From Nitrosomonas sp. (GTDB lineage: Bacteria; Pseudomonadota; Gammaproteobacteria; Burkholderiales; Nitrosomonadaceae): a stretch of 64,000 bases of DNA. The notes beneath the pieces are model-generated. The model searched no databases, was not told the origin of the DNA, and saw only the letters and a program-made list of their open reading frames with translations. Positions 8,892 through 43,742 of the stretch are shown here, one piece after another. How positions within the stretch are numbered: position 1 is the first letter of the stretch; each line of letters opens with the position of its first letter. A program made the position numbers and the translations under genes. The stretch covers positions 122,129 through 186,128 of the forward strand of contig NZ_JAMWZS010000001.1 in the NCBI RefSeq assembly GCF_024282095.1. Direction: 5' to 3'.

Positions 8892-8920
8892 TCGTTGTAG
8901 ATTAGAAGCACTTTTAAGCA

Positions 8921-8953
8921 CGGCTACCAGTATTAACCTGGTAGCCGTTTTTA
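8921..8953 (+). terminator. Intrinsic terminator after the oxidase pair
   Basis: CGGCTACCAG (8921-8930) pairs perfectly with CTGGTAGCCG (8938-8947) around a 7-nt loop and is followed by TTTTTATTT. It lies 30 bp after the stop of the fusion oxidase. Confidence 0.92.
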
Positions 8954-9344
8954 TTTATGGGTTTAGATACTTATTGGCAAGAATAGAGTTAAAAAATTGT
9001 TCAATATTGATTGCTATCATCTGAATTTCGTGGATCAGTGGTAGCGAGAAATCTTGATTACTAATGTTTACTGAAACATAAAGTAAAGATTATTCTGCTA
9101 GTATTCAGTTCGAGTCAGTATTGGAAGCATGCGCTGTTATTTTTAATGGCCTAGTAGAAATCCAGCATGCCGTTTGCCATTGAGTCGACCAAAATGAATT
9201 GACATGAAATAACAATCGTAGGTGCTTTCTTATACTGTGGCTGGAAAGCTGTCTTGAATCGGCTTAACATGCTGTGCAGAAAAAATTATTGGATTTTTAA
9301 GTTACAGCGATCCTTTACAAAAAACTAAGGAATAATTCCAGAAA
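8954..9344. other. Intergenic region upstream of manC
   Basis: About 390 AT-rich bases between the oxidase terminator and manC. No open frame with a credible start, no RNA gene and no repeat were recognised. It probably carries the manC promoter, which could not be placed with confidence. Confidence 0.5.
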
Positions 9345-10790
9345 ATGCATTCGAATATTCATCCCATTATTTTGTCTGGTGGAAGCGGTACCCGATTATG
9401 GCCACTGTCGCGCGCCAATTACCCAAAACAGTTGCTGCCGCTTGTCAGTAAAGAAACGATGTTGCAAACTACGCTAATTCGGGCAAATACTTTATTGAAT
9501 GCGCAGGCTCCCATTCTTGTATGCAATTCTGAGCATCGCTTTCTCATCCAAGAACAATGTGAAGCCATCAACATTAAACCTGAGGCGATCTATCTTGAAT
9601 CAGCCGGTCGCAACACCGCCCCGGCGATTGCACTCGCGGCATTTCATCTTGCCCAGACCGATGAAAACGCCATCATGCTCGTGCTGCCGGCTGATCATGT
9701 CATTGATGATCCGATCGCTTTTTCGCAAGCGGTGGAAACTGCAACAATTGCTGCTCGCGAAGACTATCTGGTTACTTTTGGGGTGATGCCTGATGCGCCG
9801 GAGACTGGCTATGGTTATATTAAAATGGGTAAAACCATCGCATTTGCCGCAACCACAGCGACATCACTGACAGCCTATCAAGTACAATCTTTTTACGAAA
9901 AACCCAGCCTGGAAACTGCTCAAACTTATTTGCAGGAAGGCGGTTATGCCTGGAATAGCGGTATGTTCGTTTTTACAGCCAAGCGTTATTTGGAAGAACT
10001 GCAGCGACATAAACCGAATATTTTTGTTGCTGTTCAGGAAGCCTGGCTAAAAAGAACCGTAGATTTGGGTTTTATTCGCCCCGATAAGGATGCTTTTATG
10101 GCTTGTCCATCAGATTCCATTGATTATGCCATTATGCAGGTGACTGACCGTGCGGTCGTCGTGCCCGCGCAATTTGGCTGGAGTGATGTGGGATCGTGGG
10201 ATTCTCTCTGGCAGATTGCGCCCAAGGATGCACAAGGTAATTTTACCAGCGGAGATACGCTGGTTATGGATACGCAGAGAAGTTACATTCGTGCGGAGAA
10301 TCGCCTGGTTTCCGTGATCGGTCTCGATGATGTCATTGTAGTAGAAACAGCCGATGCCGTGCTGGTGATGCATAAGAGCAAAACTCAGCAACTCAAGACT
10401 GCGATACAGCATCTTGGATCCAATGGCCGCAAGGAGCATCTCGAGCATCTGCGCATCCATCGTCCTTGGGGTTGGTATGAAGGCATCGACAAAGGAGAGC
10501 GTTTTCAGGTCAAGCGTATCATGGTAAAGCCGGGAGAAAAGCTGTCACTGCAGATGCATCATCATCGGGCGGAACATTGGGTAGTCGTCAGTGGTACCGC
10601 CAAAGTGATCGTGGAAGATAAGGAAATGCTGTTTGCAGAAAATCAATCGACTTATATTCCATTGGGTAAGCCTCACCGTCTCGAGAATCCCGGGAAAATT
10701 CCGCTGCATTTAATCGAGGTGCAATCGGGCGCGTATCTTGGCGAAGACGATATCGTGAGATTCGAGGATTCTTACGGACGTACCCTATGA
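9345..10790 (+). CDS. manC: Mannose-1-phosphate guanylyltransferase / mannose-6-phosphate isomerase (bifunctional)
   Basis: Makes GDP-mannose from mannose-1-phosphate and GTP and, through its C-terminal cupin, interconverts fructose-6-P and mannose-6-P, feeding exopolysaccharide or lipopolysaccharide. The 481 residues match the bifunctional family. The nucleotidyltransferase motif GGSGTRLWP is at about 12-20, FYEKP and GWSDVGSW follow, and the isomerase cupin has HRPWGWYE and LQMHHHRAEHW with metal-binding His. The phosphomannomutase expected to act just before it is at 43774-45150. The gene stands alone, convergent with copZ 15 bp away. The symbols cpsB, algA or xanB are used for the same enzyme. 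Confidence 0.94.
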   Translation: MHSNIHPIILSGGSGTRLWPLSRANYPKQLLPLVSKETMLQTTLIRANTLLNAQAPILVCNSEHRFLIQEQCEAINIKPEAIYLESAGRNTAPAIALAAFHLAQTDENAIMLVLPADHVIDDPIAFSQAVETATIAAREDYLVTFGVMPDAPETGYGYIKMGKTIAFAATTATSLTAYQVQSFYEKPSLETAQTYLQEGGYAWNSGMFVFTAKRYLEELQRHKPNIFVAVQEAWLKRTVDLGFIRPDKDAFMACPSDSIDYAIMQVTDRAVVVPAQFGWSDVGSWDSLWQIAPKDAQGNFTSGDTLVMDTQRSYIRAENRLVSVIGLDDVIVVETADAVLVMHKSKTQQLKTAIQHLGSNGRKEHLEHLRIHRPWGWYEGIDKGERFQVKRIMVKPGEKLSLQMHHHRAEHWVVVSGTAKVIVEDKEMLFAENQSTYIPLGKPHRLENPGKIPLHLIEVQSGAYLGEDDIVRFEDSYGRTL

Positions 10791-32612: not shown

Positions 32613-32854
32613 GACGGGTATCGGGAACGAATTTTTATCAACACGGGTAATTTCCGGATTGGATTGGCTGATTGCGCGATGGTTTCTTGTGGATTGTAAA
32701 TTGTATGTTTTTTTGCGCTGATTATGAGAATGTTCACGTATGAAGTAAGGCTAATTACGGTATCTGAAAAATTTTATGATACGCTAATGGATGGTTCCTT
32801 TGTGATCAATGTAGTTATGGTGTTCTTGTTTGTTTTATGACTCAGGATAAACTT

Positions 32855-33295
32855 ATGAAAGATTTTTTCATCAGTTATAACAAGGCCGACACAGATAAAG
32901 CGGAATGGATTGCCTGGCAATTGGAGGAAGCAGGCTACACGACAATCATCCAAGCTTGGGATTTCGGCCCCGGTGAAAATTTTGTTCTGGCTATGCAAAA
33001 AGCCGCTACCGAGGCTAAGCGAACGATTGCAGTTTTGTCGCCGGATTATTTGCAAGCACAATTTACGGCACCTGAATGGGCTGCCGCATTTGCGCAAGAT
33101 CCGGCAGGTGAAAAACGGCTTTTGATTCCTGTTCGGGCGCGGGAAGTTGAACTAACCGGACTTCTCAGAACAATTGTGTATATTGACCTAGTCGGAATTG
33201 CCGACAAAAATGAGGCACGAAAGCGGCTGTTGGAAAGCATTGGAAATAACCGGAAGAAACCAAAAGCTGAACCCGACTTCGATAATCTGTTTTAG
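32855..33295 (+). CDS. Small TIR-domain protein
   Basis: A 146-residue protein that is essentially one TIR domain. TIR domains in bacterial immunity often cleave NAD+ or make signalling nucleotides. Visible are FFISYNKAD at the N-terminus, WDFGPGENF (about 35-43), a run of hydrophobic beta-strands, and the candidate catalytic Glu74 in FTAPEWAAAF. The start at ATG 32855 is preferred over 32837 because AGGA lies 7 nt upstream of it. It is first in a plus-strand series, 8 bp before a second TIR gene, so probably an operon reaching to the DGR. Enzymatic activity is inferred, not shown. Confidence 0.88.
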   Translation: MKDFFISYNKADTDKAEWIAWQLEEAGYTTIIQAWDFGPGENFVLAMQKAATEAKRTIAVLSPDYLQAQFTAPEWAAAFAQDPAGEKRLLIPVRAREVELTGLLRTIVYIDLVGIADKNEARKRLLESIGNNRKKPKAEPDFDNLF

Positions 33296-33303
33296 CTGCC
33301 GCG

Positions 33304-34710
33304 ATGGAATCAGACATAGACTATTTCATTAGCTATACCACAGTCGATAAAGAACCGGCAGAGTGGATAGCCTGGCAGATTGAGCAGATCGGCCACAAGG
33401 TAAAAATAGATGTATGGGATTTCAAGCCGGGACAGTCTTTTCCTATTGAAATGCATAACGCTTTACGCAATGCCAGAAAAGTGATTGCGGTTTTATCCAG
33501 AAATTATCTCACCGCCGAATTTGCAAGTTCCGAATGGGCTGCTGCCTTTTCCAGTGGCAAGCTGCTTCCCATTAAAATCGAGTCGATTGACGAATCTGCG
33601 TTAGGGCTTTTCAAACCTATTATTCATATCGATTTGACCGGTTTGACATCAAAAGATGAGATTATAGATCGCTTAAAAGCCAAACTTGATGCTAGCGAAG
33701 ACGGTGTAAGGAACAAACCAGCCGTTGAGCCGCCTCTCCCACGTTTATTTACAGCAGCAATTGAAACGGCTTACCAACAACCTCAAGAAATCCAAAGCAG
33801 CAAGATTGAAACGAGTCATCCCGCACCGAAAAAGAAATTCGAAGATGACCTAGAATTTAAAGCTGGATTGGTTGATAAGGATGAGCAAGCCAAGCATATT
33901 TTCGATTGGGTAGACGACAAATTTTTTACTGACAAAGAGATTTCTCCCTTGGCTTTTTTGCTTTATGGTACAGATTCGCAATGGCCGTCCGCTTTGCTGT
34001 TTATTCTTTATTATGATATCAAAAAGCAACTTAGTATTAGGAATAACGCTTCAGTAGAACCTCTTTCACCTGAACCAGTAAAATTGGATGACAAGGTTTA
34101 TAGAAGCCACACTCTTCCGGAAGATCATCTGTGGGAATTGCTGGCTAAAAAGTTGGGTTGCCCACCGACAAGTGCAGAGATCGGACGCGTATTATCCAGC
34201 AAAAATGTGCCCCATCTCCTGTATAGGAAGCTTACCGACGCGGAATCTCAAAACCAAAGACTGGTTTGCGGCATGCTAGAGGCTTGGGAAAATCTCGAAC
34301 TTGCTCACAATGCACCTCGCCATATCCTGGTTTTATACTATGAACAAACGGATCAGCCGAAGTTGACCTGGTCTTTTTGGCGAAAAAAGGACGATACATT
34401 GATTGATAGAATCAACCAATCCTTACCAGAGCAGAACCGGAAGAAATACTTACTGCCGGAAATCAAGTCCCCCAACAAACGATTAATCCATGAATGGATT
34501 GATATTCAATTCTCCAATAGCTCGAGAACGCAGGAAATTAAAATGTTTGTTGAAACTGAAATCATGAATGAGTTCAACAAGCGTAAGAATAGCAAAAATA
34601 AAATTATAGAACGCCCCTTGCATCATATTCAGGTGTCGGGTAATGATATTGAGATTCACCATGACGATTTAAAAAACATACTGATCGATGCCTTGAAAAA
34701 ATATGGCTGA
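33304..34710 (+). CDS. TIR-domain protein with a large uncharacterised C-terminal domain
   Basis: A 468-residue protein. Residues about 5-130 are a TIR domain similar to the upstream gene (YFISYTTVD, VWDFKPGQSF, candidate catalytic Glu77 in SSEWAAAF). A Pro/Glu/Ser-rich linker (about 135-180) leads to a C-terminal region (about 180-468) of mixed alpha/beta character, not recognised with certainty. It lacks a Walker A motif but has the predicted shape of an NTPase-like or 'inactive STAND' adaptor module, which is a guess. It is visibly more AT-rich than the ATPase and VP1 genes that follow. Confidence 0.85.
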   Translation: MESDIDYFISYTTVDKEPAEWIAWQIEQIGHKVKIDVWDFKPGQSFPIEMHNALRNARKVIAVLSRNYLTAEFASSEWAAAFSSGKLLPIKIESIDESALGLFKPIIHIDLTGLTSKDEIIDRLKAKLDASEDGVRNKPAVEPPLPRLFTAAIETAYQQPQEIQSSKIETSHPAPKKKFEDDLEFKAGLVDKDEQAKHIFDWVDDKFFTDKEISPLAFLLYGTDSQWPSALLFILYYDIKKQLSIRNNASVEPLSPEPVKLDDKVYRSHTLPEDHLWELLAKKLGCPPTSAEIGRVLSSKNVPHLLYRKLTDAESQNQRLVCGMLEAWENLELAHNAPRHILVLYYEQTDQPKLTWSFWRKKDDTLIDRINQSLPEQNRKKYLLPEIKSPNKRLIHEWIDIQFSNSSRTQEIKMFVETEIMNEFNKRKNSKNKIIERPLHHIQVSGNDIEIHHDDLKNILIDALKKYG

Positions 34711-34734: not shown

Positions 34735-35901
34735 ATGACCACATTCCTTGGCGATCATTTCTACACGGGCACAGGGCAGCAAATAGAAGCGCAAAAATGG
34801 CGCCGCCTGCCCAGTTTCGACCCCGATGAACTGACGCATCCGCGCGGCTATCTGGCGCCAACGGGCTTGATATCGGCCGTTAATGTGGCGCTGGAACTGG
34901 GTATGCCACTGCTGTTGACCGGTGAGCCGGGTTGTGGCAAGTCACAGCTTGCCTATAGCCTGGCCTGGGAACTGGATTTCCCGCTGAATCCTGGCGATGA
35001 GTGGCCGAAGCCTTTGTGTTTTACGGTCAAGTCGGATACCCAAAGCCGTGATCTTTTTTATCAGTACGATACATTGGGACGTTTTCGTGCCGCGCGGGTG
35101 GAGCACGACAATGTTGATAATAGCTATCGTTATTTAAGGTTTGAAGCGCTGGGCTTCGCCATCCTGCGCGCATTGGGTGCGGATGCCATTCGTCAACTGG
35201 GTCTGGCAGGTTGTCTGGAAGAACTGCCTGCAAAACCGCAGCGCTCCGTGGTGCTGATCGATGAAATCGATAAAGCGCCGCGGGAAATCCCGAATGACAT
35301 ACTCAATGAAATTGACCGCATGAGCTTTGATATTCCCGAGTTATTCCAAACAGGGAAAGCGCGCACGATCGTGTCCTTGCAGAGCGGCAAAGCGGAATCA
35401 GCATCATCATTGCGGCCGGTAGTCATTATCACCAGCAATCGTGAGCGCGAGTTGCCGGAAGCCTTTCTGCGCCGCTGTGTGTACTATCATCTGGAATTGC
35501 CGCCTTTTCGCAGGCAACAGAGCAATAGAGTCCATGACGCTGAAAGCAATGAGGTCACGATCGAACGTATTGTAGAAAAGCGCTTGAATATTGTCATTCA
35601 GCCGGAAACTGATCAGCCGAATCAGCAAAAAAGCTTGTGGGCGGGAGGAATCGCATTGTTTGATTATCTTCGCAACGAGGTGCAATTGCAGAAACAGCCT
35701 TCTACTGCGGAATTGCTGAACTGGATGCAACTGCTGTACAAGCGTAGTCAAGGTTCGCAAGCTTACACGCTGCAAAACGCAGCGTGGCGGGAGATATTCT
35801 GCTCCAGTGCGCGCGTAACCTTGTTCAAGCACCAGGAAGACCAGGATCGCGCTAAGCAGTTGCTTGACGACTGGCTGGCGCGGCCGCTACTTAAAGGCTA
35901 A
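34735..35901 (+). CDS. MoxR-family AAA+ ATPase
   Basis: A 388-residue ATPase. Walker A GEPGCGKS is at 63-70, Walker B VVLIDEID at 172-179, sensor-1 ITSN at 232-235, and the LPEAFLRRC arginine-finger segment at about 240-248. MoxR ATPases act as chaperone-like switches, usually with a vWA-domain partner encoded beside them. Here the next gene, 8 bp away, has a vWA-like region, which fits that pairing. An ACGGAG ribosome-binding site precedes the ATG. The family is known from MoxR-vWA conflict systems that also carry TIR domains and DGRs, so a role in a defence or recognition switch is inferred. Confidence 0.93.
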   Translation: MTTFLGDHFYTGTGQQIEAQKWRRLPSFDPDELTHPRGYLAPTGLISAVNVALELGMPLLLTGEPGCGKSQLAYSLAWELDFPLNPGDEWPKPLCFTVKSDTQSRDLFYQYDTLGRFRAARVEHDNVDNSYRYLRFEALGFAILRALGADAIRQLGLAGCLEELPAKPQRSVVLIDEIDKAPREIPNDILNEIDRMSFDIPELFQTGKARTIVSLQSGKAESASSLRPVVIITSNRERELPEAFLRRCVYYHLELPPFRRQQSNRVHDAESNEVTIERIVEKRLNIVIQPETDQPNQQKSLWAGGIALFDYLRNEVQLQKQPSTAELLNWMQLLYKRSQGSQAYTLQNAAWREIFCSSARVTLFKHQEDQDRAKQLLDDWLARPLLKG

Positions 35902-35909
35902 TAGCATCC

Positions 35910-38900
35910 GTGGACGATATCCACGCTTCCCTGCGACGGCTCGACAGTCTGGCTGCTTTGTTGCATGCCGAAGGTATGTCGTGCGGACCCGATGTATGGC
36001 TGTCGGTTTATCGCTTGCTGGATCATCTGAAACGACAAAGCCGCCTACCCAAAGATATTCGTCAGTTAGCGCCGGTGCTGGGGCCGTTGTTTTGCCGCAA
36101 TCCTGAAGATCAAGCGCGATTCCCGGTGCTATTTGAGCAATGGCTGGCCATGCAAGATGAGCACGCTGCGGTTAAAGGCGATGAGTTTACGCTGGCTGCC
36201 GTGAATCAGATGACATCACCCAAGCAGACCACGCTTGCAGCCGTGCGTTCACGGGTGCAAAAAACAGGCAAGGTGTGGCTTGCGGCTATCCTGGCGTTCA
36301 TCATCACGCTGATTGCTGTGCTGATGGTTTGGGTCATGCAACCTGATCCTACGGCATTCGATCAAGGGCCAAAGCCTCCGAAAGACCCAGAAAAGATAAT
36401 AGCAAATGATACCGATCAACCCATTCAGGAAGTTTCCACGGTTCCCATCATTGATCAAGTAGTGCCGCGATCCCAGCCAGAGCCACAGAGATTGTCAGAC
36501 TATTGGAAAATGCTGCTAGCTGGCATCGCGCAGGTATTATTCTGGTTACCCTGGGGATTGGCATTTTTGTGGCTGGCAAAACGTTATCACCAGCATTGGA
36601 TTCTTAACAGTCAGCCTGCATCGGGTGATGATCTGTTGAGTCAGCTGCGGTTTGAACGGGTACTGACGCCGATTTTTGGCGGCGCCAAGGCCGAACACGC
36701 CCTGCGCGATCTACGCGCGGCGCGTTTTGAACTGACGCAGCGTCTGGATGTGGCCGCGACGGTCCAGGCTACCGCCAGGAGTGGCGGTTATTTCCATCCG
36801 ATCTATCGCAATCGCCGTGTCGCACCCGAGCATTTGCTGCTGGTGCGCAGCCTGCACCGCAACGACCAACAGGCGGCATTGGCGGAAGAACTGGAAAAAC
36901 GCTTTGTCACACTCGGTCTGCAAGTGCGGACTTACCGTTTTCGTGATGATCCGCGCTGGCTGGTGCGCTGGCATGCCAAGGATGAGAACAACAATGAATA
37001 TTACCGCTTGCCGCAATTGCTGGCCCGGCATGGCGATGCCCGGTTATTGATCATCAGCGAAACGGATATTCTGTTCCATCCCTACAGCGGGGAAATCCGC
37101 TCCTGGCTCAAGGAATTTGCGCCGTGGCAAGATAAAGTCTGGCTGCATCCGCGCGATGCGGGTGTGGCGCATGCCACATTGCTGGCGCAGCGCAATTTCC
37201 TGATGCTGCCACTGGCGCGGGACAGCCTGCCGCAACTGGTCGAGCACCTGACCACAGAGCAACCGGCCAAATTTATTCCGCAACCCGCGTATCCTCTGTT
37301 GTTGCCCGACATGATCGCGGCGGAGCCCGATGCCTGGCTGAGGGAGAAACCACCGTATGGCGCTGATCTCTCCCAACTGGTACGGCAGTTGGAATTTTTC
37401 CTGGGGAGCTATGGCCTGCGTTTGCTGCGGGCGGTGGCGGTGTATCCTAAACCGCACTGGGCGTTGACGCAGGCGCTGGATTATTTGTTGTTTGGTCACC
37501 TCAACACCGCCAATGTTACGGCGGACCCGCCACAGCGGCGCGAGCAGCGGCTGGCGCGCATCAGCCGTTTACCGTGGCTGACACACGTGCATTTACCGGA
37601 CTGGCTGCGCGAATATTTGTTGCTGGGCATGGAACGCGAAGAAAGGCAGCGCATCACAGCAGTCTGGCAGCGCCTGTTCGGTCAATTGACTGATAAAAGT
37701 GGTTTGGGCACGTTAAATCTGGAAGTTCGCACGCCATCCAAGCGCCAGCTCAGGATACGCCTGGCCGAGTTGCGCGCGATGAAAAACGCGGATAGCTTTA
37801 ACGACCCGATTTTTGCCAATATCCTGCTCGGCGGCAAGCTGGGGTTGCTCGATTTCAGACTGCCGCAGGCCATGGCCAGGCTATTGCCGCGCGCCAGTCA
37901 ATCGCTGATCTTGCGCCCGGCATTGATCGTGATATTGTGTGCGGCTATTGGCGGCTGGGGATTGCATGCCATGTGGAATAGCTATGGCCAACAAGCGCTG
38001 ACGCAATTTCAGCACTATCTCAAAACACAAGAATATGCCCAATGGCAGGTAAATCTGCATTACCAACAGGGTACTCAAGCACTGGCCGAAGCACTGCGCA
38101 ACGCATTGCAGAGCGCCAAATTCCCGGTCACCCTGCAAGCAGACACCATCGAGCCTGCTGCAGCGATCAATACGATTCAGTATGCCGCCGGCGGCAAATC
38201 CGCGGCTGAACGGGCTGCGCACAGTCTGGCCTGGCTGACGTATGATGCCGACGTCAAATTGAGCGTATCAGCTACCTTACCCGCCGATGCCATCCAGGTG
38301 CAACTGAGTCAAACTTATCAGCATGCGGCTGGATTTAATGATGAACTGCGCTTTCTTTACCAAGCTGAGTCTTCTCAGGCGAAACTTCCGTTCGAGCCGG
38401 AGATGGTGCGCATTCCACCCGGAAAATTCCTGATGGGATCGCCTGAAAATGAATCTGGGCGATATTCTGACGAAGGCCCGCAACACGAAGTCACCATCGC
38501 GTACGCCTTTGAAATCAGTAAATATGAAGTCACGTTCGACGAATACGATGCGTTTGCCAAGGATGCCAAGCGGCAATTGCCAAGCGATGAAGGTTGGGGG
38601 CGCGGCAAACGACCGGTGATCAATGTTTCATGGAAAGATGCGCGAGATTATGTGCAATGGTTATCTAAACAAACCGGTAAAAAATACCGCCTGCCGACTG
38701 AGGCCGAATGGGAATATGCCGCCCGCGCAAGAACGCAAACGGCATACTGGTGGGGACCGGACATCGGTAAAAATAATGCAAACTGTCGTGGTTGCGGTAG
38801 TGAATGGGATGGTAAACAGACTGCGCCGGCAGATTCATTTAACCCCAATACATTCGGACTTCATAACACGGCAGGTAATGTGTGGGAATGGATTGAGGAC

Positions 38901-39221
38901 TGCTCGCATGATAATTATCAAGGTGCGCCAGCGGATGGCTCGGCGTGGAAGGAAGCCAATGGCGGGGATTGTGGTCGCCGGGTGGTTCGGGGCGGTTCGT
39001 GGTTCGGCGATCCTCAGCTCCTGCGGTCGGCTGGCCGTGGCGGGGCGGCACCGGTGTTGCCGGCAGCGACCTGGGTTTTCGTATCGCCAGGGCTTTTTGA
39101 TGTTTTGTTCTTTGTGCTTTGGCTTTTGACCCTTTGCGGGGTGCAGGGGCGAAGCCCCTGCGGGTTTTGGTTTTGTAGTCATTTTGCGTTTTTGTATCAC
39201 TGCTTAGTGCGCTGTGCTTAG
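35910..39221 (+). CDS. DGR variable protein 1: membrane-anchored vWA-like/FGE C-type-lectin protein, frameshifted in its variable repeat
   Basis: Starts at GTG, 8 bp after the MoxR gene. Order: N-terminal helical region (1-115); membrane segments about 122-143 and 200-222; a vWA-like alpha/beta region (about 305-460) in which the metal-binding DxSxS is replaced by VRSLHRN; a third membrane segment about 666-690; then a formylglycine-generating-enzyme/C-type-lectin domain from about 826 (MVRIPPGKFLMGS). VR1 begins near residue 1023 (RRVVRGGSW). The Cys pair that makes true FGE catalytic is absent, so ligand binding is expected. A one-base deletion at 39044/39045 shifts the frame, so the real C-terminus (GFRIARAF, stop 39098-39100) is lost and a hydrophobic tail runs to 39221. 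Confidence 0.88.
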   Translation: MDDIHASLRRLDSLAALLHAEGMSCGPDVWLSVYRLLDHLKRQSRLPKDIRQLAPVLGPLFCRNPEDQARFPVLFEQWLAMQDEHAAVKGDEFTLAAVNQMTSPKQTTLAAVRSRVQKTGKVWLAAILAFIITLIAVLMVWVMQPDPTAFDQGPKPPKDPEKIIANDTDQPIQEVSTVPIIDQVVPRSQPEPQRLSDYWKMLLAGIAQVLFWLPWGLAFLWLAKRYHQHWILNSQPASGDDLLSQLRFERVLTPIFGGAKAEHALRDLRAARFELTQRLDVAATVQATARSGGYFHPIYRNRRVAPEHLLLVRSLHRNDQQAALAEELEKRFVTLGLQVRTYRFRDDPRWLVRWHAKDENNNEYYRLPQLLARHGDARLLIISETDILFHPYSGEIRSWLKEFAPWQDKVWLHPRDAGVAHATLLAQRNFLMLPLARDSLPQLVEHLTTEQPAKFIPQPAYPLLLPDMIAAEPDAWLREKPPYGADLSQLVRQLEFFLGSYGLRLLRAVAVYPKPHWALTQALDYLLFGHLNTANVTADPPQRREQRLARISRLPWLTHVHLPDWLREYLLLGMEREERQRITAVWQRLFGQLTDKSGLGTLNLEVRTPSKRQLRIRLAELRAMKNADSFNDPIFANILLGGKLGLLDFRLPQAMARLLPRASQSLILRPALIVILCAAIGGWGLHAMWNSYGQQALTQFQHYLKTQEYAQWQVNLHYQQGTQALAEALRNALQSAKFPVTLQADTIEPAAAINTIQYAAGGKSAAERAAHSLAWLTYDADVKLSVSATLPADAIQVQLSQTYQHAAGFNDELRFLYQAESSQAKLPFEPEMVRIPPGKFLMGSPENESGRYSDEGPQHEVTIAYAFEISKYEVTFDEYDAFAKDAKRQLPSDEGWGRGKRPVINVSWKDARDYVQWLSKQTGKKYRLPTEAEWEYAARARTQTAYWWGPDIGKNNANCRGCGSEWDGKQTAPADSFNPNTFGLHNTAGNVWEWIEDCSHDNYQGAPADGSAWKEANGGDCGRRVVRGGSWFGDPQLLRSAGRGGAAPVLPAATWVFVSPGLFDVLFFVLWLLTLCGVQGRSPCGFWFCSHFAFLYHCLVRCA
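38975..39090 (+). repeat. DGR variable repeat VR1 (in VP1)
   Basis: Aligns to TR 40689-40805 over the whole length, with 116 bases against 117. The first 28 bases and last 20 are identical to TR. Between them, 24 of 29 TR adenines are altered (23 substituted, one deleted) and no C, G or T differs. Examples: AAC to TTC, AAC to GGC, AAC to CTC, GAA to GTT. The deleted base is one of the two A of an AAC codon and shifts the frame. The 78 bases after it (39091-39168) match those after VR2 at 75 positions. Confidence 0.96.
39143..39161 (+). promoter_or_regulatory. DGR target-site hairpin downstream of VR1
   Basis: An 8-bp perfect GC-rich stem, GCAGGGGC with GCCCCTGC, closes a GAA triloop. Hairpins or cruciforms just downstream of the variable repeat are known to promote target recognition in DGRs, and GC-GNA-GC loops are known as very stable DNA hairpins. 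It lies 52 bases after the VR1 end, exactly as the VR2 hairpin does. The following CGGGTTTTGGTTTTG could also make it a weak terminator. Confidence 0.82.
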
Positions 39222-39246
39222 CACGCCCTATTTTTTAGGAGACTAT

Positions 39247-39618
39247 ATGAAACAATCCAATCAAACCATGCCAAAAGCGGTGGAAGATTGCCATGAGTTA
39301 TTGGCCTGGATCATCCCGAAATTGGATCAATTTCCGCGCAACCGGCGTTATACCTTGGGTGAGCGCATCGAAAACGGCTTATTGCTGGTGCTGGAGAATT
39401 TGATTCAGGCGGCCTATCAAAAATCGCAAACGACTTACTTGCAAACGGCCAATTTGCAGTTGGACGTGGTTCGTCATTTATGGCGCTTGAGCCATACGCT
39501 GCAATCGATTACGCACCAGAGTTATGGACAAGGCGCCGAGCGCTTGACGGAACTTGGGCGGCAGATTGGCGGCTGGCGTAAGCAAAAAGAAAGCAATACA
39601 CCTGCGAGCGCAGCATGA
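39247..39618 (+). CDS. avd: DGR accessory variability determinant (Avd), four-helix bundle
   Basis: A 123-residue all-helical protein of the bAvd/four-helix-bundle family. Avd forms a pentameric, positively charged barrel that binds the reverse transcriptase and is needed for mutagenic cDNA synthesis. The signature KLDQFPRNRRYTLGERIE (about 25-42) is present, followed by three more predicted helices. Start at ATG 39247 follows TAGGAGA; the open frame reaches further up without support. Its stop overlaps the RT start by 4 bp (ATGA). Confidence 0.93.
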   Translation: MKQSNQTMPKAVEDCHELLAWIIPKLDQFPRNRRYTLGERIENGLLLVLENLIQAAYQKSQTTYLQTANLQLDVVRHLWRLSHTLQSITHQSYGQGAERLTELGRQIGGWRKQKESNTPASAA

Positions 39619-40748
39619 TTCCATTGGAAAATGTTTGGCCTTCAATACTTGACTGGAAAAACCTGCTGCTGGCTTACCGAAAAGCACGGCGCGGCAAGCG
39701 CAATCAGGCGGAAATCCAGCAATTTGGGTTTGATCTGGAATACGAACTGAGCAGCATTCGCCAGGAATTATTGCAAAAAACCTATCAACCGGGCGGTTTC
39801 CGGCAATTCCAGGTGTGTGACCGAAAAATCCGCTTGATTTCGGCGGCGCCTTTCCGCGACCGAGTGGTGCAGCATGCGCTGATGAATCAGGTCGAGCCGG
39901 TATTGGACCGGGAATTTATTCCTGACAGCTACGCCAGCCGCAAGTTGAAAGGGGTGCATGTAGCGGTGCGGCAATATCGCGTTTGGGCGAATCGCTATGG
40001 GTATGCGCTTAAAATTGATATAAGCCGCTATTTTGACAGCATGGATCATCAAATCCTGAAACAAAAATTGGTGCGCATGATCGCTGATCCGGATGTGCTG
40101 TGGTTATTTAATACGATTATCGATTCCAGCCCGTGGCCTGCTAGTCCATACGTTGTCAAATACCCCGATGACGATCTGATGGATTTGGCGCACCGTGCAA
40201 TTGGACTGCCACTGGGTAATCTGACCAGCCAGTTTTTAGGCAATGTGTATTTGAACGATTTGGATTATTTCATTAAGGAAATCTTGCAGGTGCCAGCTTA
40301 TTTGCGTTATGTCGACGATATGATTTTATTGGCGGATGATAAAGCCACATTGTGGAATTGGTGCGAACAGATCGAGTGTTTTTTGGCCAAGGAACGGATT
40401 GGCATCCACCCGAGCAAGAAAATGCTGGTACCGGTCGCAACCGGGTTGGATGTGCTGGGGTACCGGGTTTTTCCGGATAAAACGCGATTGAGTCGCGGCA
40501 GTGGCTATCAATTTCGCCGTAAACTAAAACACTTGGCAAAAGCTTACCATGCGAATCGCATGACCTTGAATGACATTAAACCGCATGTCGCCGGCTGGTT
40601 GGGGCATGCCCGGCAAGCCGATAGCCGTGGCTTGTGCAAAGCCATTCTGGCGCAGGTATACTTCAGTAAGGGGGATACCGCTAAACGATCGCCGGGTGGT
40701 TCGGGGCGGTTCGTGGAACAACAATCCACAGAACCTGCGGTCGGCTAA
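39615..40748 (+). CDS. DGR reverse transcriptase
   Basis: Copies TR RNA into adenine-mutagenised cDNA that replaces the variable repeats. The 377 residues show the RT fingers/palm: a conserved AAPFRDRVVQHAL, ALKIDISRYFDSMDH, the DGR-specific LPLGNLTSQ (198-206, in place of the QGxxxSP of other RTs), catalytic YVDD (232-235), and thumb segment LGYRVFPDKTRL (281-292). It is translationally coupled to avd. The last 20 codons lie inside the TR, and the stop (TAA 40746-40748) is formed by a TR AAC codon read in another frame. Confidence 0.97.
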   Translation: MIPLENVWPSILDWKNLLLAYRKARRGKRNQAEIQQFGFDLEYELSSIRQELLQKTYQPGGFRQFQVCDRKIRLISAAPFRDRVVQHALMNQVEPVLDREFIPDSYASRKLKGVHVAVRQYRVWANRYGYALKIDISRYFDSMDHQILKQKLVRMIADPDVLWLFNTIIDSSPWPASPYVVKYPDDDLMDLAHRAIGLPLGNLTSQFLGNVYLNDLDYFIKEILQVPAYLRYVDDMILLADDKATLWNWCEQIECFLAKERIGIHPSKKMLVPVATGLDVLGYRVFPDKTRLSRGSGYQFRRKLKHLAKAYHANRMTLNDIKPHVAGWLGHARQADSRGLCKAILAQVYFSKGDTAKRSPGGSGRFVEQQSTEPAVG

Positions 40749-40805
40749 CCGTAACAGGAACAACACCGATGAAGCCAACAACAACCTGGGTTTTCGTATC
40801 GCCAG
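40689..40805 (+). repeat. DGR template repeat (TR)
   Basis: A 117-base template. Read in the variable-protein frame it gives RVVRGGSWNNNPQNLRSA followed by NRNRNNTDEANNN and LGFRIAS. It holds 11 AAY codons, which can mutate at both A without ever making a stop codon. The core has 29 adenines; the first 28 bases have none, and the two adenines of the 3' constant block are unchanged in both VRs, which fits the initiation (IMH-like) segment. The TR overlaps the end of the RT gene and the longest open frame of VP2. It has no hairpin after it, unlike the VRs. Confidence 0.97.
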
Positions 40806-40912
40806 TACGCCCGCAATTGTGCCTGAGCCGGGTCATTCAAGGATTATCCGGGTGTGCCGCGGGTGCCCATACGCGGCGTCTCCCGGTTGCGCAATCATGC
40901 CAACCAAAGAGT

Positions 40913-41953
40913 GTGCTGTATTCGGCAGGCGGCGGCTTGTTATCAGGCTGCCGCTTTTTATTGCTGGTGCTGGGTTTGATGGTTTGTCCGGGGATTTTGG
41001 CTGAGGATCAACCATTAGGCGATCAATCCATCGTTAAGCCACGAGGCGAGCGATCAGACGAGGAAAAAGCAAGGACAAAACAATTAGCGCAAGCCTGTTA
41101 TTTCGACAATGCGAAACTTGCGCCTGCGATGGTGGCGATTCGTCCAGATCAATTCTTGATGGGATCATCGGAAAACGAAAAAGATCGCCAGCCGAATGAA
41201 GGCCCGCAGCATTGGGTCACAATCCCCAAACCGTTTGCGATCAGCCGCTGTGAAATTACCGTGGGGCAATTCAAACAATTTGTTCAAGAAACCAATCATC
41301 GCACTACCGTTGAAGAAAACCGTAAAGGTTGTTATGTGTGGAATGCTGAGAAAAAACAAGCGGAACAATTACCAGATCATAACTGGAAAAATCCCGGATT
41401 TACGCAAGACGATCACCATCCGGTGGTGTGTGTTTCCTGGGATGATGCGCAAGCGTATGTGAAATGGTTGTCACAACGTACCGGTGCGCAGTATCGTCTG
41501 CCAACGGAAGCGGAATGGGAATACGTGGCGCGAGCGGGAACGCAAACGGCACGTTTTTATCAAGACGATAAGCAATGCGATTACGCCAATGGATTGGGAC
41601 AGGAAACAAAATCGATTGCCGGTTCTGATTGGGTTTTGGCGGATTGTTCGGATTCTTATGTGTATACCGCACCGGTTGCTAGCTTTGCAGAAAATCATTT
41701 CGGTTTATTCGATTTATTAGGCAATGCCGGGGAATGGACTGAGGATTGCTGGCATGACAATTATCGGCCTGAATCAAAACCTAACGATGGCTCAGCTTGG
41801 GGAAAAGCCGATGGCGGGGATTGTAATAGCCGGGTGGTTCGGGGCGGTTCGTGGTTCGGCGATCCGCAGGGCCTGCGGTCGGCTCTCCGTTTCAGGATCA
41901 TCACCGATGAGGCCGGCGTCGTCCTGGGTTTTCGTATCGCCAGGGCTTTTTGA
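40913..41953 (+). CDS. DGR variable protein 2: exported FGE/C-type-lectin protein
   Basis: About 346 residues from GTG 40913; the longest open frame begins at ATG 40769 inside the TR and is unlikely to be used in full. TTG 40937 is also possible and gives a compact signal peptide, CRFLLLVLGLMVCPGILA. The mature part is one FGE/C-type-lectin domain (MVAIRPDQFLMGSSENE, LPTEAEWEYVARAGTQ, GDCNSRVVRGGSW). VR2 follows and ends GFRIARAF, stop TGA. No Cys occurs in the VR where true FGE has its catalytic pair. It is intact in frame, unlike VP1, and probably displayed outside the cytoplasm. Confidence 0.9.
   Translation: MLYSAGGGLLSGCRFLLLVLGLMVCPGILAEDQPLGDQSIVKPRGERSDEEKARTKQLAQACYFDNAKLAPAMVAIRPDQFLMGSSENEKDRQPNEGPQHWVTIPKPFAISRCEITVGQFKQFVQETNHRTTVEENRKGCYVWNAEKKQAEQLPDHNWKNPGFTQDDHHPVVCVSWDDAQAYVKWLSQRTGAQYRLPTEAEWEYVARAGTQTARFYQDDKQCDYANGLGQETKSIAGSDWVLADCSDSYVYTAPVASFAENHFGLFDLLGNAGEWTEDCWHDNYRPESKPNDGSAWGKADGGDCNSRVVRGGSWFGDPQGLRSALRFRIITDEAGVVLGFRIARAF
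41829..41943 (+). repeat. DGR variable repeat VR2 (in VP2)
   Basis: Aligns base for base with TR 40691-40805 (115 bases, no gap). Changes occur at 21 of 29 core adenines and nowhere else, giving WFGDPQGLRSALRFRIITDE, then AGVV, where the TR encodes mostly Asn. The frame is open and the stop at 41951-41953 follows in the same position as the restored VP1 stop. The 78-base tail with hairpin is shared with VR1. Confidence 0.97.
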
Positions 41954-41995
41954 TGTTTTGTTCTTTGTGCTCTGGTTTTTGACCCTTTGCGGGGT

Positions 41996-42014
41996 GCAGG
42001 GGCGCAGCCCCTGC
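41996..42014 (+). promoter_or_regulatory. DGR target-site hairpin downstream of VR2
   Basis: Stem GCAGGGGC/GCCCCTGC of 8 bp with a GCA triloop, 52 bases after the VR2 end. The loop differs from the VR1 hairpin (GAA) but keeps the GNA pattern, as would be expected if the structure is selected. GGGTTTTGTTTTG follows, so it may also terminate the DGR transcript. Confidence 0.82.
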
Positions 42015-42045
42015 GGGTTTTGTTTTGTGGGTTTTTGGGGAGTAG

Positions 42046-42071
42046 GGTGGATAAGCGTAGCGCCATCCACC
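42046..42071. repeat. Short palindromic element between DGR and nadE
   Basis: GGTGGAT (42046-42052) and ATCCACC (42065-42071) are perfect inverted arms around a 12-nt centre. It looks like a REP-type intergenic palindrome and may serve as a boundary or terminator between the convergent VP2 and nadE. No second copy was noticed in this window. Confidence 0.5.
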
Positions 42072-42113
42072 ATTTTGCGGCCTCAGCCAGAGCTCCCGCT
42101 ATTTACCTTCCTT

Positions 42114-43742
42114 TTATCCTTGAAAGGTGGACCAAGTTTGATAGCTGGATGTGATGGGATAAAACCACGCGGTGCCGAAATCGCAATGCGTGATGCGAAT
42201 TCCTGGCGGTGCTTGCCGACGTTTATATTCATTCTGATGAATCAATTGAATGATTCTGTTGACATCTGCGGCGTTGTAATTCAACGCGATAATTTCAGCC
42301 GGTGAGAAATCCTTTTCGACATACGCTTCGATAATTGCGTCCAGAACTTCGTAGGGCGGCAAGGTATCCTGGTCCGTCTGATTGTGCCGCAGTTCGGCGG
42401 AAGGCGGGCGATGGATGATGCGCTCGGGAATGATCCGGCTGATTTGATTGCGGTATTCACACAGCTGATACACCATGGTTTTACTGACATCTTTCAGTAC
42501 CGCAAAGCCGCCTGCCATATCGCCATATAACGTGCAATAACCCACCGCCACTTCGGATTTGTTGCCGGTAGTCAGTACAATCGAGCCCGAGTGATTGGAA
42601 AGCGCCATTAATAATGTGCCGCGTATACGCGCTTGTAAATTCTCCGGCATGGTGTTTGTTCCCATGGGATCCGGAAGAATTTGGAAATCATGCTCAATTT
42701 TTGATAAAAATTGAGCAAACAAGGGTTGGATGCTGCATTCGTAATGTTTGACCCCTAATAATTCAGCCATTGCATTGGCGTCTTCCAGGCTGATATCGGC
42801 GGTATATTGCGACGGCAACATGACGGTTTTAACCTTGTCCGCTCCGAGTGCATCGACGGCAATTGCCAGCGTTAATGCCGAGTCAACACCACCGGAAAGT
42901 CCCAGCAGCGCGCCGGGGAAGCCGTTTTTATCGATATAGTCTTTAACGCCCAAACATAATGCCTGATAGACGCTGGCAACCGGAGCTTGCGGTGCGGCCA
43001 GTTTGCCTTTGGTGGGTTGCTTGTCGTGAATGTCGACTAATTCAGTGGTTTCAACAAATTCATCCAGTTGGTGCGTGAGCTCTCCATGCCGATTCATTGC
43101 AAAAGAAGCGCCATCAAAAACCAATTCATCCTGCCCACCCACCAGATTAGTGTGGATAACGGAGATGCCGGTGCGCTTGATAAATTGGTGCGTGGCTTGA
43201 TAACGAGAGACCTGCTTATTGATATGATATGCCGAAGCGTTCAGCACTAATAGAATGTCCGGATTGGAGTAATTCTCTGCAGTGCACAAATGACCTAGCC
43301 AGAAATCAGTGCAGATATGAATGCCAAATTGAACGCCGGCCAGTTCAAATACGCAGGGTTCAGAACCGCTGTCGAAATAGTAGGTTTCATTAAAGAAGGG
43401 CGATTTGCTGAGGACTCTTTTGTGGTAAGCATGGATGACTTCACCGTTGCGAATCACGGATGCGGTATTATAAAGTTTGCCATCCTGAAAACTTGGATGA
43501 CCCACGATCAGTGTGATGCCGTCAATCGCTTTTACCAGCGCTGCCAGCGCAGCATCGCACGATTGGCAGAAAGTTTCGCGCAGTAATAAATCAACCGGGG
43601 GATATCCGGAGAGCGCCAGTTCCGGGGTTATGAGCAACTGGGCGCCGGCCTGTTTCGCTTGCTCGACAGCGTCCAGTATCTTTGCAGCGTTCCCTGCAAT
43701 ATTACCCACGGTGCAATTAATCTGAGCAATCGCAATGCGCAT
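42114..43742 (-). CDS. nadE: NAD+ synthase, glutamine-hydrolysing
   Basis: Final step of NAD+ synthesis from nicotinate adenine dinucleotide. The 542 residues hold an N-terminal nitrilase-type glutaminase (catalytic Glu in PELALSGYPP, Lys in KRVLSKSPF, Cys in FGIHICTDFW) and a C-terminal ATP-pyrophosphatase synthase domain (GLSGGVDSAL, then TTGNKSEVAVGY). It is convergent with the TIR/DGR locus. The neighbouring TIR genes could consume NAD+, but this is probably ordinary housekeeping placement. Confidence 0.96.
   Translation of the reverse strand: MRIAIAQINCTVGNIAGNAAKILDAVEQAKQAGAQLLITPELALSGYPPVDLLLRETFCQSCDAALAALVKAIDGITLIVGHPSFQDGKLYNTASVIRNGEVIHAYHKRVLSKSPFFNETYYFDSGSEPCVFELAGVQFGIHICTDFWLGHLCTAENYSNPDILLVLNASAYHINKQVSRYQATHQFIKRTGISVIHTNLVGGQDELVFDGASFAMNRHGELTHQLDEFVETTELVDIHDKQPTKGKLAAPQAPVASVYQALCLGVKDYIDKNGFPGALLGLSGGVDSALTLAIAVDALGADKVKTVMLPSQYTADISLEDANAMAELLGVKHYECSIQPLFAQFLSKIEHDFQILPDPMGTNTMPENLQARIRGTLLMALSNHSGSIVLTTGNKSEVAVGYCTLYGDMAGGFAVLKDVSKTMVYQLCEYRNQISRIIPERIIHRPPSAELRHNQTDQDTLPPYEVLDAIIEAYVEKDFSPAEIIALNYNAADVNRIIQLIHQNEYKRRQAPPGIRITHCDFGTAWFYPITSSYQTWSTFQG

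Follow-up and report, generated by a model that had tools for sequence, protein, structure and literature searches.

A diversity-generating retroelement between two receptor-type genes of a TIR/MoxR-like operon in Nitrosomonas, and sister operons without its core

A reverse transcriptase (RT) gene that stands between two genes ending in altered copies of one short repeat raises three questions: whether the locus is a complete diversity-generating retroelement (DGR), what it diversifies, and what has become of its targets in relatives that lack the RT. The locus lies in a 64,000-nucleotide stretch of Nitrosomonas sp. (assembly GCF_024282095.1), called the window here, which corresponds to contig C68:122129-186128 of a 2.8-Mb assembly in 81 contigs with 99.97% completeness (G000). 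A preliminary description, made from the letters of the sequence, had proposed a complete, adenine-specific DGR with two targets. In the analysis reported here, which extends to 149 genomes including this one, 85 of them of the same genus, the parts of such an element are present and the template repeat (TR) and the variable repeats (VRs) diverge only at adenines at all targets, from TR position 40691 on. We consider it likely that this is a cellular DGR whose targets are the receptor tips of a TIR/MoxR conflict system and one remote TIR receptor.

The coordinates first given for TR and VR1 are borne out (Table 1), and the end-to-end alignment proposed for the repeats holds for VR2, which has the same length as TR, while VR1 is one base shorter, the missing base being opposite a TR adenine. 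In VR1, 24 of the 31 TR adenines are changed (16 A>G, 6 A>T, 1 A>C and the one missing) and none of the 86 other positions; in VR2 the changed adenines number 21 of 31 (11 to G, 9 to T, 1 to C). Both totals agree with the first count, which left aside two adenines of the invariant 3′ tail and so gave 29 core adenines instead of 31. That no C, G or T differs is true of VR1 throughout and of VR2 from 40691 on, the sole non-adenine change being a C>A at the extreme left edge (TR 40690), outside the VR2 start chosen at first. One template was said to serve two targets, the flanking genes VP1 and VP2, which is correct for these genes but not for the count, since a third VR of the same TR (VR3, locus L013:8447-8562) is found on contig C80, with 16/31 adenines and 0/85 other positions changed. 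A genome-wide search for the VR head that allowed up to three mismatches gave four places (TR, VR1, VR2 and contig C80), all of them exact. Beginning at 40691, the three VRs are identical to TR at every non-adenine position. Fisher p values of 5e-19, 1e-14 and 2e-11 for VR1, VR2 and VR3, respectively, exclude chance as the source of the adenine bias.

An RT with at least 68% identity is present in five of the 149 genomes (G000, G022, G039, G006 and G009, the RT-positive genomes below), and all five keep the order VP1-avd-RT-TR-VP2, with avd and RT between the two target genes, as already described for the window. When each of their 11 VRs is compared with its own TR, 189/345 adenines and 2/898 other positions are changed, a count without edge position 40690 and without the bases inserted in two G022 VRs; the adenine specificity claimed for one genome is thereby upheld in its relatives. 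At 15 sites the five TRs differ from each other, none of them having adenine there, and the VRs follow their own TR in 164 of 165 cells. As read from the alignments, this agreement was left by templates that were copied onto their targets again and again in each of the lineages. The parts of the element, the adenine-only divergence and the adherence of targets to their own template in five species are thus established at the level of sequence.

The same data bear on the explanation that needs no retroelement, in which ordinary positive selection or gene conversion would account for the variation among C-type-lectin paralogs. Selection could act on a binding face, where the variable residues presumably lie; in seven VRs of the RT-positive genomes, though, AAY codons are changed at 104/156 first and second positions and at 0/78 third positions, and RT, Avd and TR are all present. 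This explanation is refuted for the five RT-positive genomes, and we give it practically no credence.

Table 1. Coordinates of the features of the locus within the window.
Feature	Position	Strand	Remarks
TIR-domain protein a	32837..33295	+	152 aa; first gene of the conflict operon; Pfam TIR_2 118 bits
TIR-domain protein b	33304..34710	+	468 aa; putative effector; Pfam TIR_2 93.8 bits
MoxR-like AAA+ ATPase	34735..35901	+	Pfam AAA_5 and AAA above cut-off; MadB ATPase match under its cut-off
VP1	35910..39221	+	long N-terminal part and C-terminal FGE/C-type-lectin domain; FGE-sulfatase 178 bits
VR1	38975..39090	+	116 bp, 1 base shorter than TR
T-rich spacer after VR1	39091..39142	+	common to VR2 and VR3, none after TR
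GC-rich hairpin past VR1	39143..39161	+	8-bp stem, GAA loop, 52 bp past VR1
avd accessory gene	39247..39618	+	NCBIfam DivGenRetAVD 95 bits (cut-off 80); Pfam bAvd 61 bits (cut-off 40)
DGR reverse transcriptase	39615..40748	+	377 aa; stop within TR; RVT_1 68.9 bits
TR (template repeat)	40689..40805	+	117 bp: 31 A, 33 C, 33 G, 20 T
VP2	40769..41953	+	FGE/C-type-lectin protein; hydrophobic leader (by eye); FGE-sulfatase 207 bits
Post-TR segment	40806..40930	+	probable 3′ part of DGR RNA; in all five RT-positive genomes; single copy in this genome
Terminator-like hairpin with T tract	40927..40956	+	probable end of DGR RNA
VR2	41827..41943	+	alignment to TR
GC-rich hairpin past VR2	41996..42014	+	8-bp stem, GCA loop, 52 bp past VR2

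The RT contains the motifs LPLGNLTSQ and YVDD noted at the outset. Its nearest solved chain is 8ub7 (E 2.6e-44), which matches BPP-1 Brt over the 24 residues of the two that were compared. A tree of 33 rows separates 24 RTs of the GxxTSQ/GxxSSQ type, which include BPP-1 Brt and the present RT, from nine of the QGxxxSP type with a 100/100 split, the BPP-1 and Clostridia rows being long branches and the inner order partly open. The RT therefore belongs to the DGR group. RTs of cyanobacterial plasmids fall in the same group; a Fischerella plasmid (AP018301) and, under an accession other than that of the tree row, a plasmid of Anabaena sp. 90 are named as DGR carriers in the excerpt of PMC7517822. 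A search of IMG/VR for relatives of this RT confirmed none, 166 records of annotated phages had RT matches, every one below 60% identity, and the best identity on plasmids was 43% among the 5000 records listed.

The last 19 codons of the RT gene and its stop (40689-40748) are supplied by TR, and the RT frame ends within TR in the relatives' loci too. The segment behind TR is whole in four of the five RT-positive genomes and reaches only to about 40892 in G006. A scan of 38500-42500 against Rfam gave no match at E 0.5 or better.

Downstream of their VRs, the targets carry elements that the template lacks. A T-rich stretch of about 40 bp (by eye) follows 11/11 VRs of the RT-positive genomes and does not follow TR. 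In this genome GC-rich hairpins stand 52, 52 and 43 bp past the three VRs, with the loops GAA, GCA and GTA, and the pattern GCAGGGGC-GNA-GCCCCTGC (up to two mismatches) occurs at three places in the 2.8 Mb, one per VR, and not once in 100 shuffles of the window. A dispersed genomic repeat was considered and rejected, since there are three places only, each past a VR. Over the 149 genomes the pattern is found at 32 places, namely the three here, two in G008 and 27 that were retrieved (L056-L082); in 26 of the 27 the VR-like end of an FGE (formylglycine-generating enzyme) type gene lies just upstream (24 directly, L059 and L061 on the other strand), and L076 does not fit. Among the 11 VRs of the RT-positive genomes, six are followed by a GC hairpin: three in G000, two in G009, one of which has its loop in reverse orientation, and VR2 of G006, with an imperfect stem. 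The 100 bp after VR1 and after VR2, a stretch that TR does not have, are 88% identical within G000 and 96% within G022, as against 49-72% between genomes; within the other three RT-positive genomes the value is 56-69%, and the within-genome likeness is weak or absent there.

By analogy with BPP-1 and other known DGRs, avd, RT and TR would be transcribed up to the terminator-like hairpin, and Avd and RT would copy the TR RNA to cDNA with errors opposite adenines. The cDNA would then replace the VR, with the identical 3′ tail CTGGGTTTTCGTATCGCCAG and the T-rich spacer found only at targets as guides; in this genome the GC hairpin follows the spacer.

What would be diversified in this way is indicated by the genes of the operon, which on the + strand are two TIR genes, an AAA+ ATPase gene immediately upstream of VP1, then VP1, avd, RT, TR and VP2. 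The name “MoxR-like” is given to the ATPase by analogy with Dore 2024. All three targets match FGE-sulfatase, and the VR lies at the 3′ end of each of these C-type-lectin (FGE) type genes. VP1 has hydrophobic segments at about residues 122-140, 202-220 and 666-684 by hydropathy, and a fourth in its frame-shifted tail; the first two are present in 11 of 12 homologous VP1 rows (that of G008 is cut). The listed ATG of VP2 falls in TR, and its true start probably lies downstream; the solved relatives of VP2 include PvdO, FGE and the Treponema denticola variable protein 1. The third target, on contig C80, encodes a protein of 416 residues, with TIR at its N-terminus, FGE at its C-terminus and VR3 at the end. 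To judge from hydropathy, VP1 may present its variable C-type-lectin tip outside the cytoplasm. VP2 may be exported, and the TIR-FGE protein may act in the cytosol. An invader molecule bound at a tip would act through the ATPase on the TIR effector, which would stop or kill the cell, as can be extrapolated from Dore 2024 (PMC10907252) and Kaur 2020 (PMC7159879). Three nSTAND1-FGE fusions are encoded on the minus strand of contig C75 of the same genome (L014: 990-3176, 5880-8765 and 14446-17142); the TR head pattern has no match on this contig, so that the fusions are not recognizable as targets and are candidate non-diversified receptors.

Operons that combine a DGR with a conflict system have been published (Kaur 2020, PMC7159879; Dore 2024, PMC10907252), and Nitrosomonas is named among the hosts of multiple related DGRs in the latter; the comparisons made here draw on excerpts of the cited papers. 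The arrangement is similar to that of clade 5A DGRs (Thiohalocapsa PB-PSB1 DGR 8, PMC10907252) in having a MoxR gene, a target with a long extension before the C-type-lectin domain, a short target consisting of that domain, and TIR nearby, a likeness of operon arrangement. Unlike the clade 5A example as described in that excerpt, the template here has a further match in a TIR-FGE fusion that lies on a different contig, and sister species hold operons without the DGR core. With the VMAP/MoxR-vWA ternary conflict systems (PMC7159879) the locus has in common a MoxR-type ATPase, an FGS/FGE domain with a DGR and TIR-type effectors; it differs from their description in that neither VP1 nor the operon has a vWA or VMAP match in the libraries used.

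Like the BPP-1 DGR (PMC3240598), the element has avd, TR and RT as its core, a VR at the 3′ end of the target and a GC-rich hairpin past the VR. The core order is avd-RT-TR here and avd-TR-RT in BPP-1, and the hairpin has a three-base GNA loop 43-52 bp past the VR, in place of the four-base GRNA loop at 4-34 bp given for the BPP-1 type (PMC3240598). Unlike what is described for BPP-1 in that source, the hairpin is missing from two of the five RT-positive genomes and, in another, from one of the VRs. The DGR of T. denticola (PMC4891356) likewise has multiple targets; there, too, target genes survive where RT and TR are gone, which that paper reads as leftovers of loss, and RT-less leftover targets as an idea are thus already known from it. 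The present case differs from that account in being spread over a genus, in being set in a conflict operon and in having an empty site that aligns to an orthologous filled one. A Prosthecochloris plasmid record has a similar two-target layout, FGE-HRDC-avd-RT-hypothetical-FGE.

Several observations weigh against a working DGR that serves a conflict system. The GC hairpin is missing after five of the 11 VRs (both of G022, both of G039 and VR1 of G006), so the DGR-like pattern does not need it, and its role as a strictly required target element was rejected on these grounds; a BPP-1 reconstitution (PMC12875486, in the part available) also found that the stem-loop is not strictly required. The hairpin moreover scores as a terminator, and a double role as target element and terminator is possible. 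The third hydrophobic segment is found in just 8 of the 12 VP1 rows. The TR adenine missing from VR1 shifts the VP1 frame inside VR1, from where it runs to 39221, and VP2 of G022 is also frameshifted. No vWA match was found in VP1 or in the middle part of VP1 from three species, and no VMAP match in the operon, it being uncertain whether the libraries used hold a VMAP model. By these tests the locus resembles such systems and falls short of the full ternary (MoxR-vWA/VMAP) definition, two of the three defining parts being missing or unrecognized. The immune or sensor role is argued from analogy, and the abstract of Dore 2024 (PMC10907252) states that such a role still awaits testing. Present-day activity of the DGR, finally, is inferred.

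Frame-shifting single-base changes affect two of the 11 VRs, namely VR1 of G000 and VR2 of G022, the latter by a one-base insertion that shifts the VP2 frame, and VR1 of G022 has an in-frame insertion of three bases. The VP1 frameshift may be an assembly error, and frameshifts inside VRs may be a by-product of error-prone copying. The broken VP1 frame could also hint at a DGR that is no longer active in this strain, with VRs that record past activity, a view to which the many sister genomes without RT lend some weight. The RT and Avd frames of this genome are open, though, and the full non-adenine agreement of TR with its three VRs is of a kind that decays in orphan VRs (below), so that we regard an inactive element as quite unlikely.

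The other alternative is a different function: adhesion, nutrient binding or FGE/PvdO-like enzyme activity, with all three target proteins diversified toward some other ligand. Among solved proteins, PvdO and formylglycine-generating enzymes are indeed nearest to VP2 in sequence; against this, TIR- and MoxR-type genes are fused to the targets or share their operon, here and in related genomes, which is the published setting of predicted conflict systems. We hold a non-immune role to be unlikely and prefer that of a conflict-system receptor.

The targets have a wider distribution than the RT. The VR-tail element is present in 26 of the 85 genus genomes, 21 of which have no cognate RT. Sixteen of these RT-less genomes match neither this RT (E ≤0.001) nor Avd, including G020 and G044, which are assembled in one contig each, and G046 and G067, in two contigs each. 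Weaker RT matches occur in the remaining five (G029, G049, G064, G068 and G072), and G049 has in addition an Avd of another type above cut-off and targets that may be served by another DGR. With up to three mismatches, the TR pattern finds a template only in the five RT-positive genomes, its three other matches being VRs with three mismatches each.

Compared with the best of the five TRs, the 30 orphan VRs of the 21 RT-less genomes are changed at 485/944 adenines and 219/2446 other positions, with 1 to 27 non-adenine changes per VR. In AAY codons, 18 orphan VRs whose ends have 0-2 mismatches are changed at 237/398 first and second positions and 12/199 third positions; for six with 3-5 end mismatches the counts are 66/132 and 15/66, and for six with more than five they are 74/134 and 25/67. 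As third-position changes rise across these bins, the orphan VRs carry a DGR signature that fades with divergence. The tables comprise 40 VRs (loci L056-L082 and L087-L116) chosen by a head pattern with up to five and a tail pattern with up to six substitutions; their end agreement is partly due to this selection, and the codon test uses only the VR middle, with bins set by the conserved ends. They include seven of the 11 cognate VRs of RT-positive genomes. G042, which has a VR-tail match, yielded no VR under these patterns, and G031 entered through the hairpin search. Drifted FGE genes of RT-positive genomes (L068, L071 and L106), kept apart from the cognate VRs, gave AAY-codon counts of 43/66 and 15/33.

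Eighteen wider stretches from 14 RT-less genomes show how far the operon accompanies these targets. TIR, MoxR, VP1 and VP2 occur without avd or RT matches in L125, L126 (with the VP1 frame cut), L129 and L131; L130, at a contig edge, has the VP1 end and VP2, L128 is without VP2, and L141 has a VP1 end without FGE match. Homologs of the third, TIR-FGE target are found in L132, L137, L140 and L142, and the remaining six stretches have FGE matches only. L129 (G077, 89% complete with 7% contamination) is flanked like the window on both sides, by an M48-type peptidase and nadE, and is therefore the window's own site without the DGR. In L133 (G067:C1:1171000-1188000) an orphan operon has a broken MoxR frame, a rearranged VP1 and one FGE gene.

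The empty site is best defined in G020, an assembly of one contig, and in G008, both of which match G022 on either side of the missing avd-RT-TR core. The gap corresponds to G022 8333-9991 (8334 for G008), starting 9 bp ahead of avd and ending 91 bp past TR, and each genome has 147 bp instead; past VP2 the match continues for about 3 kb in G020 and about 0.2 kb in G008. The post-TR stretch of the window is 155 bp long, and of its 3′ end G008 retains 63 bp (90%) and G020 61 bp (78%); G005 retains a shorter piece (114-155). Positions 93-125 of this stretch are present also in G039 and G009, which have different VP2 leaders, and not in G006. The retained pieces in G008 and G020 favor loss of the core, as modest evidence, and the RT-less Nitrosomonas operons are apparently receptors frozen after loss of the diversifier. 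Short repeats of the type GTAGGGTGGATAAGCGTAGCGCCATCCACC (by eye) are found next to target genes and also within the spacer that replaces the core (window 42040-42080; L125 8340-8760; L129).

The RT-less operons may instead never have lost a DGR in cis, their targets having arrived already diversified by horizontal transfer or having been diversified in trans. In the nadE tree RT-positive G022 pairs with RT-less G008 (96/97), RT-less G016 and G020 being members of the same clade; the spacer that replaces the core is homologous between G020 and G008, and the weaker RT matches of five RT-less genomes, with the Avd of another type in G049, point in the same direction; targets diversified in trans are known (Dore 2024, PMC10907252). 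The lack in RT-less genomes of any TR within three mismatches argues for loss, as do the 16 of 21 genomes with neither RT nor Avd match and the 61-63 bp of post-TR sequence in G008 and G020, about 31-33 bp of which are common to RT-positive G039 and G009. We give an origin without loss in cis a substantial minority share of belief.

The MoxR tree likewise sets RT-positive G022 beside an RT-less genome, G016 (99/96), and leaves G000 unresolved. Because both trees put G022 among RT-less genomes, the core was regained there or the empty allele spread by recombination. G000 groups with G039 and G009 in the tree of the VP1 N-terminal part (VP1N; 100/99), with G064 and G032 in that of nadE (95/98) and with G022 in that of RT (100/99), and these differing placements suggest that the receptor front end was exchanged; a cut frame kept G008 out of the VP1N tree, and a broken one kept G067 out of the MoxR tree. 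RT identity exceeds nadE identity by 7.6-11.3 points in all six pairs of G000, G022, G039 and G006, G009 having no full nadE match. Transfer of the core between G000 and G022, considered because RT is 94% identical between them while MoxR, VP1N and VP2 are at 59-65%, was withdrawn, since vertical descent fits; judged by these trees, the incongruent part is the VP1 N-terminal part and not the DGR core. Deletion in G016 by recombination between VR1 and VR2 is not supported, its flank being 91% identical to the VR1 side of G022 and 85% to the VR2 side.

A tentative model, which we think improbable as it stands, treats the core as a detachable diversifier, a unit of about 1.7 kb that would be gained and lost at one fixed site between two receptor genes. 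A diversifying phase would be followed by one of frozen, innate-like sensors and sometimes, as in G022, by renewed diversification, with the front ends (VP1 N-terminus and ATPase) swapped separately. In the literature searched, no orthologous filled and empty site of a DGR core inside a conflict operon was met, an absence that is not proof.

The locus adds a well-documented case of a DGR with a conflict system in an ammonia oxidizer, in which one template would serve three receptors, probably in different compartments. Related operons with and without the diversifier are a natural comparison for the function of DGR-diversified receptors and for the usefulness of alleles once diversification stops, and the presence of the same receptor operon without the mutator in related species makes the switching in and out of the mutator a testable idea.

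Distinct DGR-type RTs with 30-40% identity to this one, on separate branches of the tree, occur in G083, G033, G011, G019, G060 and G063 (loci L032-L034, L037, L038 and L040).

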